A DNA stretch of 64,000 bases. Source: Algiphilus aromaticivorans DG1253 (GTDB taxonomy: Bacteria; Pseudomonadota; Gammaproteobacteria; Nevskiales; Nevskiaceae). A program made the translations under genes and the position numbers. A model generated the notes under the pieces. It was not told the DNA's origin and ran no database searches. It worked only from the letters and a program-made list of their open reading frames with translations. The stretch is taken from NCBI RefSeq assembly GCF_000733765.1, contig NZ_JPOG01000001.1, positions 682,001 through 746,000 of the forward strand, given 5' to 3'. Below, in pieces: positions 12,470 through 37,248 of the stretch (its first letter is position 1; each line of letters starts with the position of its first letter).

Positions 12470-13806
12470 ATACGCTTGTCACCAGCATATTGATCTTCGC
12501 AACACGGCCTTCGGATGTAGTTAAGGCAGCCGCTCCTTCTGGGATTGTTCGGCTTGGTGGTGCCGCATTGGAGTTTGTCGTAGTTGCGGTGCTTGCACGC
12601 GCGTTAGGAGCGGACGAATACGGGGCCTATAGCTACGCGTTTGCAATTTTGCTGATGGTGCTGATTCCTGCGAGGACAAGCTTATACACGCTAGTGGTTC
12701 GGGAGACTGCATACTCGCTCGCACACGGCGAGCGAGCGTCACTCGTGGGCTTAACGCGATGGAGTAGAGCCGCGGCACTTCTCGGAGCCGGTGTACTTGC
12801 CATACCAGTGGCTGTGCTACTTCTGGTAACTCAGGACGGCGCCTTCCGTCCTCTACTAGTGGCCTCGGCTATCGTCTGGCTCCCGGCGATGCTGCTCCTA
12901 GTGGTAACTGGTGCAGTGTTCGCCGGCCATCGGCAGGTCGCGCTGGGGCAGATTCCGGAGCAAGTGCTACGGCCGTTGTTCCTTCTCGCTCTACTAGCCG
13001 GGTGGAGTCTCTTGCAAACGGCGCCGCTGTCAGCCTCTGAGGCTATGGCAGTTACCGCTTGCGGGGCATGTGGGGCGCTAGTTGCGTCAGCAATCATTTA
13101 TCGCTGGCAGATAGCGCGTCCTGATGTGGCTGTGGCGCCTAAATATTTGCATCATCATTGGATGGCTGCAGTAGGGCCTCTTTTCCTCTTCGGGATGGCA
13201 CATGCGATCAATACCCATGTGGGCGTATTTTTGATCGGTGTGTTCGTCAATGTAGAAGAGGTTGGGTTGTATCGGGTTGCGGTACAATGCGTGACTCTCG
13301 TCATTGTCGGCCAACAAGTGGTAAATATGGCGATTTCCCCACGAATGGCGGAATTGTATTCGACCGATCAAATGGAGGAATTACAACTCCTGGTTAAGCG
13401 TGCAGTCCGGACCAGTTTTCTGGTCGCTTCTTTTGTTGCGGGCATCTTGATGTTTTTTGGAGATCGCATTATAGAGCTTCTATTCGGTGCAAGCTTTGCA
13501 TCCAGCTACTCTGCGCTTTCCATACTCTGTGTCGGACATCTCGCGAGTGTCGCAATTGGGCCAGTTGGAGCTTTGCTCAATATGGCTGGTCAGGAGCGCG
13601 CAGCATTCCGTGGGGTTGCTGTCGCCGCAGTAATTAACGTTGGTCTAAACGTATTGCTAATACCTCAGTTAGGGATGCATGGAGCCGCCCTTGCGGCAGT
13701 CGCAACGCTTTTCATTTGGAATGCAATTCTACGCAACAGTGTAAATTCATTGCTTGGGATAGAGGCATCAGTATGGATCAGGCCGACGTTGGGAAATAAA
13801 AAGTGA
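12466..13806 (+). CDS. Wzx-type oligosaccharide flippase
   Basis: A 446-residue polytopic protein with about twelve hydrophobic helices, of the polysaccharide-export (MVF/PST) type. It starts at a TTG that overlaps the stop of the preceding glycosyltransferase (TTGA). Conserved features are GAALEFVVVAVLARALGADEYGAYSYAFA near the N-terminus (given here only as the first 20 or so positions, about residues 31-60) and the RAAFRGVAVAAVINVGLN helix late in the protein. Expected role: moving lipid-linked glycan units to the periplasmic face. The neighbours are a glycosyltransferase and a sulfotransferase, both overlapping it by 4 bp. Confidence 0.85.
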   Translation: MNTLVTSILIFATRPSDVVKAAAPSGIVRLGGAALEFVVVAVLARALGADEYGAYSYAFAILLMVLIPARTSLYTLVVRETAYSLAHGERASLVGLTRWSRAAALLGAGVLAIPVAVLLLVTQDGAFRPLLVASAIVWLPAMLLLVVTGAVFAGHRQVALGQIPEQVLRPLFLLALLAGWSLLQTAPLSASEAMAVTACGACGALVASAIIYRWQIARPDVAVAPKYLHHHWMAAVGPLFLFGMAHAINTHVGVFLIGVFVNVEEVGLYRVAVQCVTLVIVGQQVVNMAISPRMAELYSTDQMEELQLLVKRAVRTSFLVASFVAGILMFFGDRIIELLFGASFASSYSALSILCVGHLASVAIGPVGALLNMAGQERAAFRGVAVAAVINVGLNVLLIPQLGMHGAALAAVATLFIWNAILRNSVNSLLGIEASVWIRPTLGNKK

Positions 13807-34693: not shown

Positions 34694-34822
34694 GGTCGAG
34701 TCCTATTCGAAAGCCCGCGACGACCAATGTACTCCCACGCGGCGAGCGAAGGCTATCCACCAATGCTCACTGGTCGGTATCGGCAAGCGAAGGGGGTGTC
34801 TGAGACAAGAAGAGGGGAGCGC

Positions 34823-34888
34823 GGGCCGCCAGGGGCTCGACGATTTTGTCCGGAATAGAACCGCGCGACCGAAGGGAGCCCGAAGGGC
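34823..34888 (+). repeat. tRNA-Lys 3'-end remnant plus degenerate 71-bp two-hairpin element
   Basis: Bases 34823-34840 match the 3' 18 bases of the tRNA-Lys gene at 36543-36560 with one change. They are followed at once by a decayed copy of the two-hairpin element described at 35948: the first stem has mismatches, the linker GCGCGACCGAAGGGAGCCCG is intact, and the second hairpin has decayed. This copy bounds the toxin-antitoxin cassette on its left. Confidence 0.75.
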
Positions 34889-34930
34889 CGCGCACGCAGG
34901 GGTGGTTGCGGGCCGGTGGGCTCGGCGGAC

Positions 34931-34991: not shown

Positions 34992-35441
34992 CTATGCGCA
35001 CAATTTCCAGCCGTCAGCGTCGTCCGTCATGCAGATCTCGCGTTCTGTCTGGGTCCGATCCAGTTCCTTGAGGCGCTCGACGAGCTTTGCGAAGTCGGAG
35101 TCTTTGTGTAGGGACGACTTGTAGAGTGCGCGTATCAGCAAATCCGGTTGCCGCTGCACTTCGTCTTTCTTCTCCCACAAAGCAATGGTCTGCTCGTCGC
35201 ACTCAAAGATGCCTGCGACAGCCCGCTGCGACATCCCAAGCTGGCGGCGCAGAAAGCGAAATTCCTTTCCGCTCATGTGGTCGCTGTTCTCAACGAGGTA
35301 ATCGGCGATTGCCTTGTGCAGACCCTGTACGTCGTGAATGGCGACGGCTTCCCCATGCTTGGTTGCCCGCAGTTCATAGCCATTGGCGAGCCAAACGTTG
35401 GTGAGCCCGCATTCGGTGTAGTGATACATATTCTCGTTCAT
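34992..35441 (-). CDS. Helix-turn-helix antitoxin, MqsA/HigA-like
   Basis: A 149-residue protein, second gene of a toxin-antitoxin pair; its ATG overlaps the toxin stop (ATGA). The N-terminal YHYTECGLTNVWLANGYEL is a compact domain with a single Cys, seen in antitoxins paired with DUF4258 proteins. The C-terminal part is a Cro/HigA-like helix-turn-helix (FRFLRRQLGMSQRAVAGIFE), with the recognition helix followed by ALWEKKDEVQRQP. It should both neutralise the toxin and repress the operon through the palindrome at 35761. The cassette is flanked by tRNA-Lys remnants. Confidence 0.82.
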   Translation of the reverse strand: MNENMYHYTECGLTNVWLANGYELRATKHGEAVAIHDVQGLHKAIADYLVENSDHMSGKEFRFLRRQLGMSQRAVAGIFECDEQTIALWEKKDEVQRQPDLLIRALYKSSLHKDSDFAKLVERLKELDRTQTEREICMTDDADGWKLCA

Positions 35442-35758
35442 GCTAGCACCGTGATAACTATGGTTTGATCTTCCCTTGAGCTAATCTCAATTGCTGCCAC
35501 GATGGTCACTTCCATGCCGGATGCGATGCGGCGAACGTGACATTTCCAGTCGCCTGATTCATCTTTTTCTGGTGCTTGCGTAAGTTCACCCTTCTCCAGG
35601 CATTCCATCACCTGATGCATCGTCACCCCGCGCTCTTCCATTCTCTGATGAGCGTGGCGCGTAACGGCCACTCGCCATGTTGTTTCTGCGCACTCACGGA
35701 TGATCTCAGTGGCGCGCTCTTGTGTAAGCGGGAAGTCCGTCACTTGTGGCCTTGACAT
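35438..35758 (-). CDS. DUF4258 protein, probable RNase-type toxin
   Basis: A 106-residue protein from the ATG at 35758; a GTG one codon earlier is also possible. TRHAHQRMEERGVTMHQVMECLEKGEL is the DUF4258 core (about residues 34-60), with the conserved HAxxRMxxRGI-like helix. The later WKCHVRRIASGMEVTIVAAIE strands fit a small RelE/MqsR-like fold. Toxin first, antitoxin second is the order seen in higBA and mqsRA. Toxicity is inferred only from the arrangement and family. A strong 17-bp palindrome sits immediately upstream of the start. Confidence 0.8.
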   Translation of the reverse strand: MSRPQVTDFPLTQERATEIIRECAETTWRVAVTRHAHQRMEERGVTMHQVMECLEKGELTQAPEKDESGDWKCHVRRIASGMEVTIVAAIEISSREDQTIVITVLA

Positions 35759-35760
35759 CA

Positions 35761-35777
35761 CCCCTAATTATTAGGGG
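35761..35777 (-). promoter_or_regulatory. Perfect palindrome at the start of the toxin gene, probable operator
   Basis: CCCCTAATTATTAGGGG is a perfect 17-bp palindrome centred on base 35769 and ending 2 bp before the toxin ATG. Because it covers the ribosome binding region (AGGGG), bound antitoxin or an RNA hairpin could block both transcription and translation start. Confidence 0.65.
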
Positions 35778-35929
35778 TTGTAGGGCGGCTTGCAAGGCCG
35801 TCCATCAGGTAGCCGAATACCTGGGCGGCCAAGGTTCTGGCCTACCCCGAGGGTTGCTCGGAGAGCATGAGCCACTGCCGAGTATTGGATAGCGGTGCTC
35901 CGCTCTGCGCGTAGTCGTTGATTGTTTGC

Positions 35930-36159
35930 GGGCCGCCAGGGACTAGATGATGTTGTCGGGAACAACATCACGCGACCGCAGGGAGCCCGAAAGGTCAGGC
36001 CCATGGATGGGCCCGGCACGATTCTGTCTGGAACAGAATCGCGCGACTGAAAGGAGCCCGAAAGGCCAGGCCCATGGACGGGCCTGGCACGATTCTGTCC
36101 GGAACAGAATCGCGCGACCGAAGGGAGCCCGCAGGGCCAGCGCCATGGACGGCGCTGGC
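35930..36159 (+). repeat. tRNA-Lys 3' remnant followed by three tandem 71-bp two-hairpin elements
   Basis: Bases 35930-35947 match the 3' 18 bases of tRNA-Lys with one change. Three elements follow at 35948, 36019 and 36090, each 71 bp: hairpin B (9-bp stem, 5-base loop), a 23-base linker containing CGCGACCGAAGGGAGCCCG, and hairpin A (9-bp stem, loop ATGGAC or ATGGAT). Hairpin B is TGATGTTGT/ACAACATCA in the first copy and CGATTCTGT/ACAGAATCG in the others. Hairpin A is GCCAGGCCC/GGGCCTGGC in the second copy and GCCAGCGCC/GGCGCTGGC in the third. Both stems therefore change by compensation. No coding potential is supported. Confidence 0.9.
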
Positions 36160-36538
36160 AACCCCGAACCTACGCAGCCCGCAGGGCTGCTGGCCTGGTA
36201 GGCCGCGAGGTGGGGATAGGGATTTGGTGGGCCGCCAGGGACTCGACGATTCTGTCTGGAACAGAATCGCGCGACCGAAGGGAGCCCGCAGGGCCAGCGC
36301 CATGGACGGCGCTGGCAACCCCGAACCTACGCAGCCCGCAGGGCTGCTGGCCTGGTAGGCCGCGAGGTGGGGATAGGGATTTGGTGGGCCGCCAGGGACT
36401 CGACGATTCTGTCTGGAACAGAATCGCGCGACCGAAGGGAGCCCGCAGGGCCAGCGCCATGGACGGCGCTGGCAACCCCGAACCTACGCAGCCCGCAGGG
36501 CTGCTGGCCTGGTAGGCCGCGAGGTGGGGATAGGGATT
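36160..36538 (+). repeat. 157-bp tandem repeat built from tRNA-Lys T-arm pieces and the 71-bp element
   Basis: Two complete copies (36160-36316, 36317-36473) and a third that runs into the real tRNA-Lys gene. Each copy reads: ACCCCGAACCTAC (tRNA T-arm 5' side), a GCAGCCC/GGGCTGC hairpin, a spacer, TGGTGGGCCGCC plus AGGGACTCGA (tRNA 3' end with CCA), then the 71-bp element at 36247 or 36404. Joined without the element, the two tRNA pieces recreate the tRNA-Lys sequence 36543-36573, so the element sits exactly in the T-loop. The copies appear identical, so the amplification is recent. Confidence 0.92.
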
Positions 36539-36613
36539 TGGTGGGCCGCCAGGGACTCGAACCCCGAACCTACTGATTAAGAGTCAGCTGCTCTACCATT
36601 GAGCTAGCGGCCC
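36539..36613 (-). tRNA. tRNA-Lys (CTT)
   Basis: Full cloverleaf on the minus strand: acceptor GGGCCGC/GCGGCCC, D-arm GCTCAATGGTAGAGC, anticodon loop CTCTTAA with anticodon CTT, T-arm CGGGGTTCGAGTCCC-like, and an encoded CCA (36539-36541). It is downstream of tRNA-His in the same transcript. Its 3' end is the source of the remnants found at 34823, 35930, 36229 and 36386. Confidence 0.95.
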
Positions 36614-36877: not shown

Positions 36878-37248
36878 GACCGAATGCCCGGTGGGCATTC
36901 GCAGCCCGTTGAACGGCGCGGACAGGAGTCCGCGCCAGGGTCACTTGACGAGGCAGGAGCCGAGTCTAGTGACAGCTGCTCCCCCTTTCATGAAGGCCGT
37001 GTGCAAGAATATGTCTCCGTCGGGGCGTAGCGCAGCCTGGTAGCGCATCTGCTTTGGGGTGAAACGGGACCGAATGCCCGGTGGGCATTCGCAGCCCGTT
37101 GAACGGCGCGGACAGGAGTCCGCGCCAGGGTCACTTGACGAGGCAGGAGCCGAGTCTAGTGACAGCTGCTCCCCCTTTCATGAAGGCCGTGTGCAAGAAT
37201 ATGTCTCCGTCGGGGCGTAGCGCAGCCTGGTAGCGCATCTGCTTTGGG
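36878..37248 (+). repeat. 190-bp tandem duplication at the tRNA-Pro gene
   Basis: Bases 36878-37058 and 37068-37248 (181 bp) look identical. Each copy begins with a folded segment, GAATGCCC/GGGCATTC (36882-36900) then GGCGCGGAC/GTCCGCGCC (36915-36936), enclosed by GACC and GGTC. It continues through a promoter-like region and ends inside tRNA-Pro at the anticodon (CTTTGGG). In copy one the tRNA stops there; in copy two it continues as the intact gene. Confidence 0.92.
37021..37058 (+). pseudogene. tRNA-Pro 5' half, copy 2
   Basis: Identical to the first 38 bases of the intact tRNA-Pro at 37211, up to and including the anticodon TGG, then broken by GTGAAACGG and the next repeat copy. It has lost the 3' half and cannot make a tRNA, but it would be transcribed from the duplicated upstream region. 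Confidence 0.85.

Follow-up and report, generated by a model that had tools for sequence, protein, structure and literature searches.

A stretch of 64,000 nucleotides from Algiphilus aromaticivorans DG1253 (contig NZ_JPOG01000001.1, positions 682,001 to 746,000; hereafter the window) contains repeated copies of a 70-71-bp hairpin element, abbreviated here as elt, which probably belongs to a family of non-coding miniature mobile DNA elements that resemble repetitive extragenic palindromes (REPs), nest in the T-loops of tRNA genes and are handled in trans as folded single-stranded DNA. Comparison among genomes supports the presence or absence of both the bare module and a larger unit, the placement in T-loops, the displacement of tRNA ends and the covariation of the stems. 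The mobility of the element rests on these sequence comparisons, and the enzyme and the mechanism proposed below are inferred. An initial annotation of the window had pointed out a repeated two-hairpin structure, to which are now added the tRNA T-loop context, a tRNA-restoring unit of ~170 bp, a structured linker and a gene pair located between copies.

The array in the window is hosted by an intact tRNA-Lys (CTT) gene on the minus strand (36539..36613; ARAGORN; 72.1 bits with the Rfam tRNA model), and all of its parts are given on that strand. Five copies of the element lie in the array at 35948-36473 and a sixth, decayed copy about 1 kb away at 34841-34913, which upholds the initial count of at least six, the sixth being outside the range then given. 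The 19-nt core is matched six times in the window at no more than three mismatches, compared with an expectation of 0.09, and none of 100 shuffles reached six. Three tandem units of 157 bp (36404..36560, 36247-36403 and 36090-36246; period 157, 99-100% identity) run in the order trailer, GCAGCCC hairpin (GCAGCCCTGCGGGCTGC), GTAGGTTCGGGGTT and elt, followed by TCGAGTCCCTGGCGGCCCACCA. The hairpin, read from the sequence, stands directly before the copy of the tRNA T-stem at 36488..36504 and again at 36331-36347 and 36174-36190. GTAGGTTCGGGGTT is the variable region and T-stem of tRNA-Lys itself and TCGAGTCCCTGGCGGCCCACCA is the 3' end of the same tRNA, and the copied T-loop in these partial tRNA-Lys 3' ends is split by the element as GGTT|elt|TCGA. 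Copy 1 (36404..36473; hairpins A, D, C and B in minus-strand reading) scores 92.5 bits with R1, a covariance model built from 13 copies, and has the displaced tRNA-Lys 3' end TCGAGTCCCTGGCGGCCCACCA behind it (36382..36403); copy 2 (36247..36316) is likewise backed by a displaced end at 36225..36246. In the third unit, copies 3 (36090..36159), 4 (36019..36088) and 5 (35948..36017) are stacked head to tail in a single T-loop, separated by a single T, with a displaced and decayed tRNA-Lys 3' end, TCTAGTCCCTGGCGGCCCGCAA, behind them (35926..35947). Copy 6 (53.4 bits with R1) retains the right-hand tRNA remnant only, a decayed tRNA-Lys 3' end at 34819..34840 with 6 mismatches in 24. In E. coli rtT, tandem repeats behind a tRNA also include the tRNA 3' end, and the window array, as a 157-bp tandem repeat including such an end, could be explained by local tandem duplication of tRNA 3' ends, the hairpins being spread by slippage and gene conversion and no mobile element being involved. 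As an account of the family this is very unlikely, because elements of the same fold are found at 23 anticodons, at a 5S gene, in miniature inverted-repeat transposable elements (MITEs) and in a group II intron relic, with clean presence and absence.

On the minus strand the element runs through four hairpins, first A with a 9-bp stem and a 6-nt loop, next the small hairpins D (CC-TNC-GG) and C, and last B with a 9-bp stem and a 5-nt loop. The lengths of stems, loops and linker first described recur in all five array copies, and the paired differences between copies, at three positions of hairpin B and two of hairpin A, are real. The 9-bp stem of hairpin A holds in general but is imperfect in the copy at 35948 (copy 5), and the 23-base linker, although constant in length, is not unstructured, since it is made up of hairpins D and C. 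Paired changes in the window had been put forward as covariation; however, the copies at 36090, 36247 and 36404, three of the five in the array, lie within the 157-bp duplication, so the window alone offers little independent evidence. Across 115 distinct copies the stems do covary beyond chance, as had been anticipated, with a score of 0.599 as against 0.180 for shuffled alignments and at most 0.079 with the pairing partners slid, and standard pairs occupy 92.0% of pair cells; these figures lean towards structure because the alignment was fitted to the structure of the model and the copies are related, but the margin is wide. In hairpins C and D of the linker, pairs are formed in 90-100% of cells, and the inner pair of hairpin C is C-G in 49 copies and G-C in 45. 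The fold, its small loops and its mismatches are conserved while the letters of the stems drift. Among 139 small loops matching T-N-C in 193 copies, TTC (83) and TGC (36) prevail over TCC (10) and TAC (10), only the spread of N being informative here, as the pattern itself required T-N-C.

The mismatches also bear on which nucleic acid, and which strand, is folded. In stem A, T.C or C.T mismatches number 114 and G.A or A.G mismatches 5 (both alignments, foot pair dropped), and on the opposite strand the former read as G.A pairs and the small loops as G-N-A triloops. Since G.A pairs and GNA triloops stabilise DNA, single-stranded DNA of the strand that reads from B to A is favoured as the folded form. 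The folding energy of a window copy is strong as DNA (z -4.2 and -5.8) and as RNA (z -3.1 and -4.5), and a second copy folds weakly as DNA (z -1.4 and -2.0). The strength of the RNA fold, together with the loops CTGGA and ATGGAC on the plus strand of the window and weak Rfam matches to sX7 (RF02226, 23.4 bits) and RsmY (12.2 bits), could indicate that the element works as an RNA, perhaps one that binds CsrA/RsmA through GGA loops or one related to the Xanthomonas small RNA sX7. Such a role is quite unlikely to account for the family: the Rfam scores are far below the gathering thresholds of 55 (sX7) and 57 (RsmY), the DNA folds equally strongly, and the orientation relative to the tRNA is mixed, with 44 sense and 27 antisense among 71 units near tRNAs.

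Homologues beyond the locus, which the initial annotation had proposed to look for, are found widely in relatives and in samples of the class and the phylum. In the genome of A. aromaticivorans itself, R1 matches 25 sites at E<=1, and 15 of these reach <=1e-4; these 15 best lie by tRNA-Lys, -Pro, -Arg, -Asn and two tRNA-Ser genes and at one further place (76 kb), where a tRNA-like 3' fragment is present and no tRNA occurs within the 20 kb fetched. With 60 relatives included, 32 of 61 genomes, in 17 of 21 genera, carry a covariance-model match at E<=0.01, and a second model, R2, finds the element at E<=1e-4 in 85 of the 276 class genomes and in 36 of 199 drawn from the phylum, the own genome being counted. 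Those phylum-sample copies outside the class that were inspected mostly have no tRNA nearby, and one (L224) has a T-loop-like right flank. An exact scan of genome contigs for the 19-mer returned six stretches, three beside tRNA-Gln (two from Thioalkalivibrio, representing two species, and one from a gammaproteobacterial metagenome-assembled genome) and three without a tRNA, two of which, in Streptomyces, resemble chance. Viruses, phages and plasmids yielded no match to one strict pattern and two blastn searches, which are weak tests. Matches judged by eye to be a different repeat (L038, L040-L044, L046) were excluded from the alignment. At one locus (L199, 634-2553), the relic of a group II intron (Rfam RF01998, RF02001) holds seven copies within 2 kb.

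The placement of the element was assessed in 200 distinct copies with flanks, 119 from relatives and 81 from the class, which had been derived from 121 and 84 aligned matches, respectively. An intact tRNA lies within 300 bp of 65 of the 119 and 32 of the 81 copies, as compared with 9.7% of the bases of the same loci, a control that overstates the background, since the loci had been chosen around elements. Relative to the nearest tRNA, 91 of these 97 copies lie 3' and 6 lie 5'. Seventy-one elements are situated no more than 160 bp 3' of an intact tRNA, covering 23 anticodons and 59 distinct tRNA sequences, although not all of these units are independent, some being tandem or orthologous. Directly after the element, 43 of the 71 carry a displaced 3' end of the same tRNA (at least 75% identity), compared with 3 of 1420 controls using other tRNAs, and an inverted copy of the T-stem is present within the gap in 30 of the 71 (control 128 of 1420). 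Measured from the T-loop cut to the end of the element, the unit has a median length of 172 bp and a range of 125-250. T is the first letter of the right flank in 103 of 119 and 75 of 81 copies, and the full TCGA opens it in 61 of the 119 and 26 of the 81. Both orientations of the element are possible because the T-loop sequence TTCGAA is identical on both strands. Moreover, the layout is matched at a 5S rRNA gene (L155, minus strand), where an intact gene at 1760-1875 and its terminator are followed by a second, partial 5S 3' end split by an element at 1501-1570.

Empty and filled versions of one site are provided by the orthologous tRNA-Val(GAC) locus ahead of the start of threonyl-tRNA synthetase (thrS; gene read by eye), compared in 11 species of one genus, of which three are empty, four filled and four decayed or unclear. 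The empty sites (G047, G055, G060) consist of tRNA, terminator and gene. Filled sites, with one unit in G044, G050 and G056 and two in G041, show a whole tRNA, a spacer, GATTCTCACC with the inverted T-stem, GGTT, the element, the displaced TCGAATCC..CCA and, last, a terminator similar to the one at the empty sites. Filled loci are longer by about 170 bp (174 bp for G056 against G055 and 170 bp for G050 against G060; the 206 bp for G044 against G047 include other differences). The sequence in G057 resembles a decayed unit, and G051, G053 and G058 have other spacers and no clear element by eye. The bare module, too, comes and goes: in genome G038, the body of a MITE measures 336 bp in one form and 407 bp in another that has a second element, the element alone being present or absent, and the insertion site, GCGT|T...T|(A/G)CTCG, has no duplication beyond a single T. 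The initial suggestion of an undescribed structured or miniature mobile element is supported, as neither of the outcomes named as its refutation occurred: homologues exist far outside the locus and the stems covary strongly. The two versions of the MITE and of the tRNA-Val site favour its mobile branch. This MITE (L087, L092, L094, L096, L109) is ~340-400 bp long, has ends near GGAAACACTGATC, bears one or two elements and is itself repeated.

A position in the T-loop, a restored tRNA and a partial tRNA at the far end are also known from integrative and conjugative elements (ICEs) and prophages (PMC9897764). It could accordingly be argued that a tyrosine integrase placed the units as micro-islands, with the unit as the smallest tRNA-integrating element and the hairpin element as the left arm of its phage-type attachment site (attP). 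A case that seems to speak for this is found at L126 (10271-19216), where a filamentous-type prophage with an integrase, a Zot-family gene and Rep_trans lies between tRNA-Val and tandem elt units. However, this prophage carries its own tRNA fragment, which reaches the anticodon region and is distinct from the elt junction, so it represents a separate insertion at the same tRNA-Val gene. The element also inserts alone in the MITE, without tRNA sequence, and occurs far from tRNAs, and no integrase is found among the open reading frames of the window units. Placement by a tyrosine integrase is unlikely.

Genes, too, are found between copies, and transport of cargo by the element is possible on the strength of such arrangements. 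In the window, a DUF4258 protein gene (35438..35761, minus strand; PF14076, E 1.3e-10, above cut-off) lies between copies 5 and 6 together with its partner, a helix-turn-helix (HTH) protein gene (34992..35441, minus strand; HTH_19, E 0.002, below cut-off). The former is presumably toxin-like and the latter antitoxin-like, and the pair is a possible candidate cargo. Elsewhere in the same genome (L124, 9983-12788), a LysR gene and a short-chain dehydrogenase (SDR) gene are located between tRNA-Ser(CGA) and an element with a displaced tRNA-Ser end, and a shorter remnant of the elt/tRNA-Ser junction remains near 12540.

With the element regarded as a mobile, folded DNA module, the following course of events may be proposed. 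The module would insert directly 3' of (G)TT and gain one T, its favourite target being the tRNA T-loop (GGTT|CGA). Near tRNAs, the usual travelling form would be a unit of ~125-250 bp comprising a tRNA 3' end, the trailer, often an inverted T-stem hairpin, GGTT and the module. On entering a T-loop, such a unit would supply a new 3' end for the tRNA and push the old one downstream, so that the gene stays whole and units can stack. An enzyme acting in trans would recognise the folded single strand, read from B to A, and cut at GTT and at the right end of the module in the manner of IS200/IS605-type single-strand transposition, while the right end together with a second GTT might capture flanking DNA, be it a tRNA end or genes. 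A further step is conceivable but doubtful. A stretch in the inverted T-arm would be complementary to the tRNA target on either side of the cut, and with the spare 3' end it might allow a gene-free single-stranded unit of ~170 bp to find a tRNA by pairing, split its T-loop, mend it, stack, and take up genes like cassettes.

Several observations weigh against a mobile element that nests in T-loops and moves in this way. No tRNA lies within 1000 bp in the fetched DNA of 46 of the 119 and 47 of the 81 copies, and no clear displaced tRNA end is recognisable in 28 of the 71 units, in part because another element follows. TT closes the left flank in 91 of 119 copies from relatives and in 28 of 81 from the class; allowing one letter of slack raises the latter to 47 of 81. 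A shift of the model edge by one letter accounts for part of this weakness in the class, which is also a real limit of the rule. At the tRNA-Val locus, the gains in length are summed lengths, the aligner having split the insert gap. The borders of the insert are ambiguous within a 22-bp direct repeat and, the tRNA 3' end being repeated, can be placed at the T-loop or after CCA. In stem B, the counts of G.T and A.C single out neither strand. As regards an enzyme, the Y1 transposase (PF01797) has no match in the own genome and is missing from 8 of 32 carriers of the element, and 26 regions of Y1 genes, a part of those listed, contain no element at E up to 0.1.

Since Y1 genes, including those of REP-associated tyrosine transposases (RAYTs), are absent from the own genome, do not track with the element (24 of 32 carriers, 19 of 29 non-carriers) and have no elements beside them in those 26 regions, Y1/RAYT was rejected as a required partner. 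A reverse transcriptase (PF00078; 4 of 12 carriers, 1 of 12 non-carriers) and the IS110 transposase (PF01548; 10 of 18 carriers, 4 of 12 non-carriers, a weak trend) were likewise rejected. IS110 genes lie within ~1-1.5 kb of elements at two loci (L185 in G294, L186 in G167), which may reflect chance or targeting. The integron integrase was considered in connection with the view that the element is a folded, attC-like integron recombination site moved by that enzyme. The retention of structure with free letters, the genes between copies and a match to the integrase (IntI) of 413.8 bits in the own genome are in line with it, but 10 of 18 carriers and also 8 of 12 non-carriers have the enzyme (TIGR02249, above cut-off), on which ground it was rejected as a partner, and no R-box pair was seen at the ends of the element by eye, no tool having been applied; an attC-like site is most improbable. 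None of the four enzyme families tested tracks well with the element, in samples that are small (61 genomes for Y1, 24 for reverse transcriptase, 30 for IntI and 30 for IS110) and from which remote relatives can escape.

A second hairpin repeat stands in tandem in the window (36884-37010 and 37074-37200, plus strand), 5' of tRNA-Pro(TGG) and between partial copies of the 5' half of that tRNA; the own genome contains 24 matches to it. It is again located, by eye, between partial tRNA 5' halves close to a cluster of tRNA-Thr/Gly/Tyr genes (L234, L236). It may do at tRNA 5' halves what the element does at 3' ends, as its mirror image.

If the proposed mobility is correct, the stable-RNA genes of many proteobacteria would harbour a mobile element that is gene-free and of much smaller size than the known tRNA islands, and an explanation would be at hand for the partial tRNA copies that disturb tRNA annotation. 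The element would further offer a system for asking which enzyme reads folded DNA whose stem letters are free and why T-loops are chosen, and would bear on how CGTC-like palindromes lacking a known transposase could move. Gene pairs between copies suggest that cargo may possibly be carried as well.

No Rfam family matches the element above gathering, and no published description of such an element was found in the open-access journal literature searched. IS200/IS605-type miniature elements, such as palindrome-associated transposable elements (PATEs), have hairpin ends and insert behind a short fixed sequence, on its 3' side, with no duplication of the target. The element agrees with IS200/IS605-derived elements in that it has hairpins at both ends and enters, again without duplication, directly 3' of a set motif, which is GCGTT in the MITE pair; it differs from PATEs in that no Y1 partner was found for it. 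A MITE of a DDE transposase is not matched, as the ends of the element are not inverted copies and the 71-bp insertion repeats at most one T. Whereas rtT is confined to one locus, the element occurs at many tRNAs and in many species, with a covarying module at each junction. The closest known class is that of REPs with GTAG or CGTC tags (PMC3733652). Like REPs, bacterial interspersed mosaic elements (BIMEs) and REP doublets forming hairpins (REPINs) with their RAYTs, the elements are short non-coding palindromes in many copies and mosaic clusters, with presumed mobilisation in trans (PMC3733652). In contrast to GTAG REPs, palindromes of 20-40 bp in that account, the element has 70 bp and four hairpins, targets T-loops and restores the tRNA, and its alignments show no terminal GTAG tag at the ends. 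To CGTC REPs, for which PMC3733652 knows no dedicated transposase, it comes nearest in hairpin B, whose 9-bp stem and 5-nt loop fit in many copies and are often preceded by CGTC, with CGCG in place of that tag in the window copies. Its B stems, however, start mostly with C-G (83 of 115) instead of the A-T reported there for CGTC REPs, it shows no CCA tail (right flank T..), and hairpins A, C and D are additional. Partial tRNA genes beside large integrated elements such as ICEs and prophages are well known, the examples in PMC9897764 spanning ~9-23 kb. With such tRNA-integrating islands, the elt unit shares insertion in a tRNA, the supply of a new 3' end and the displacement of the old one, yet it measures only ~170 bp, has neither an integrase gene nor room for one, and is stacked many times.
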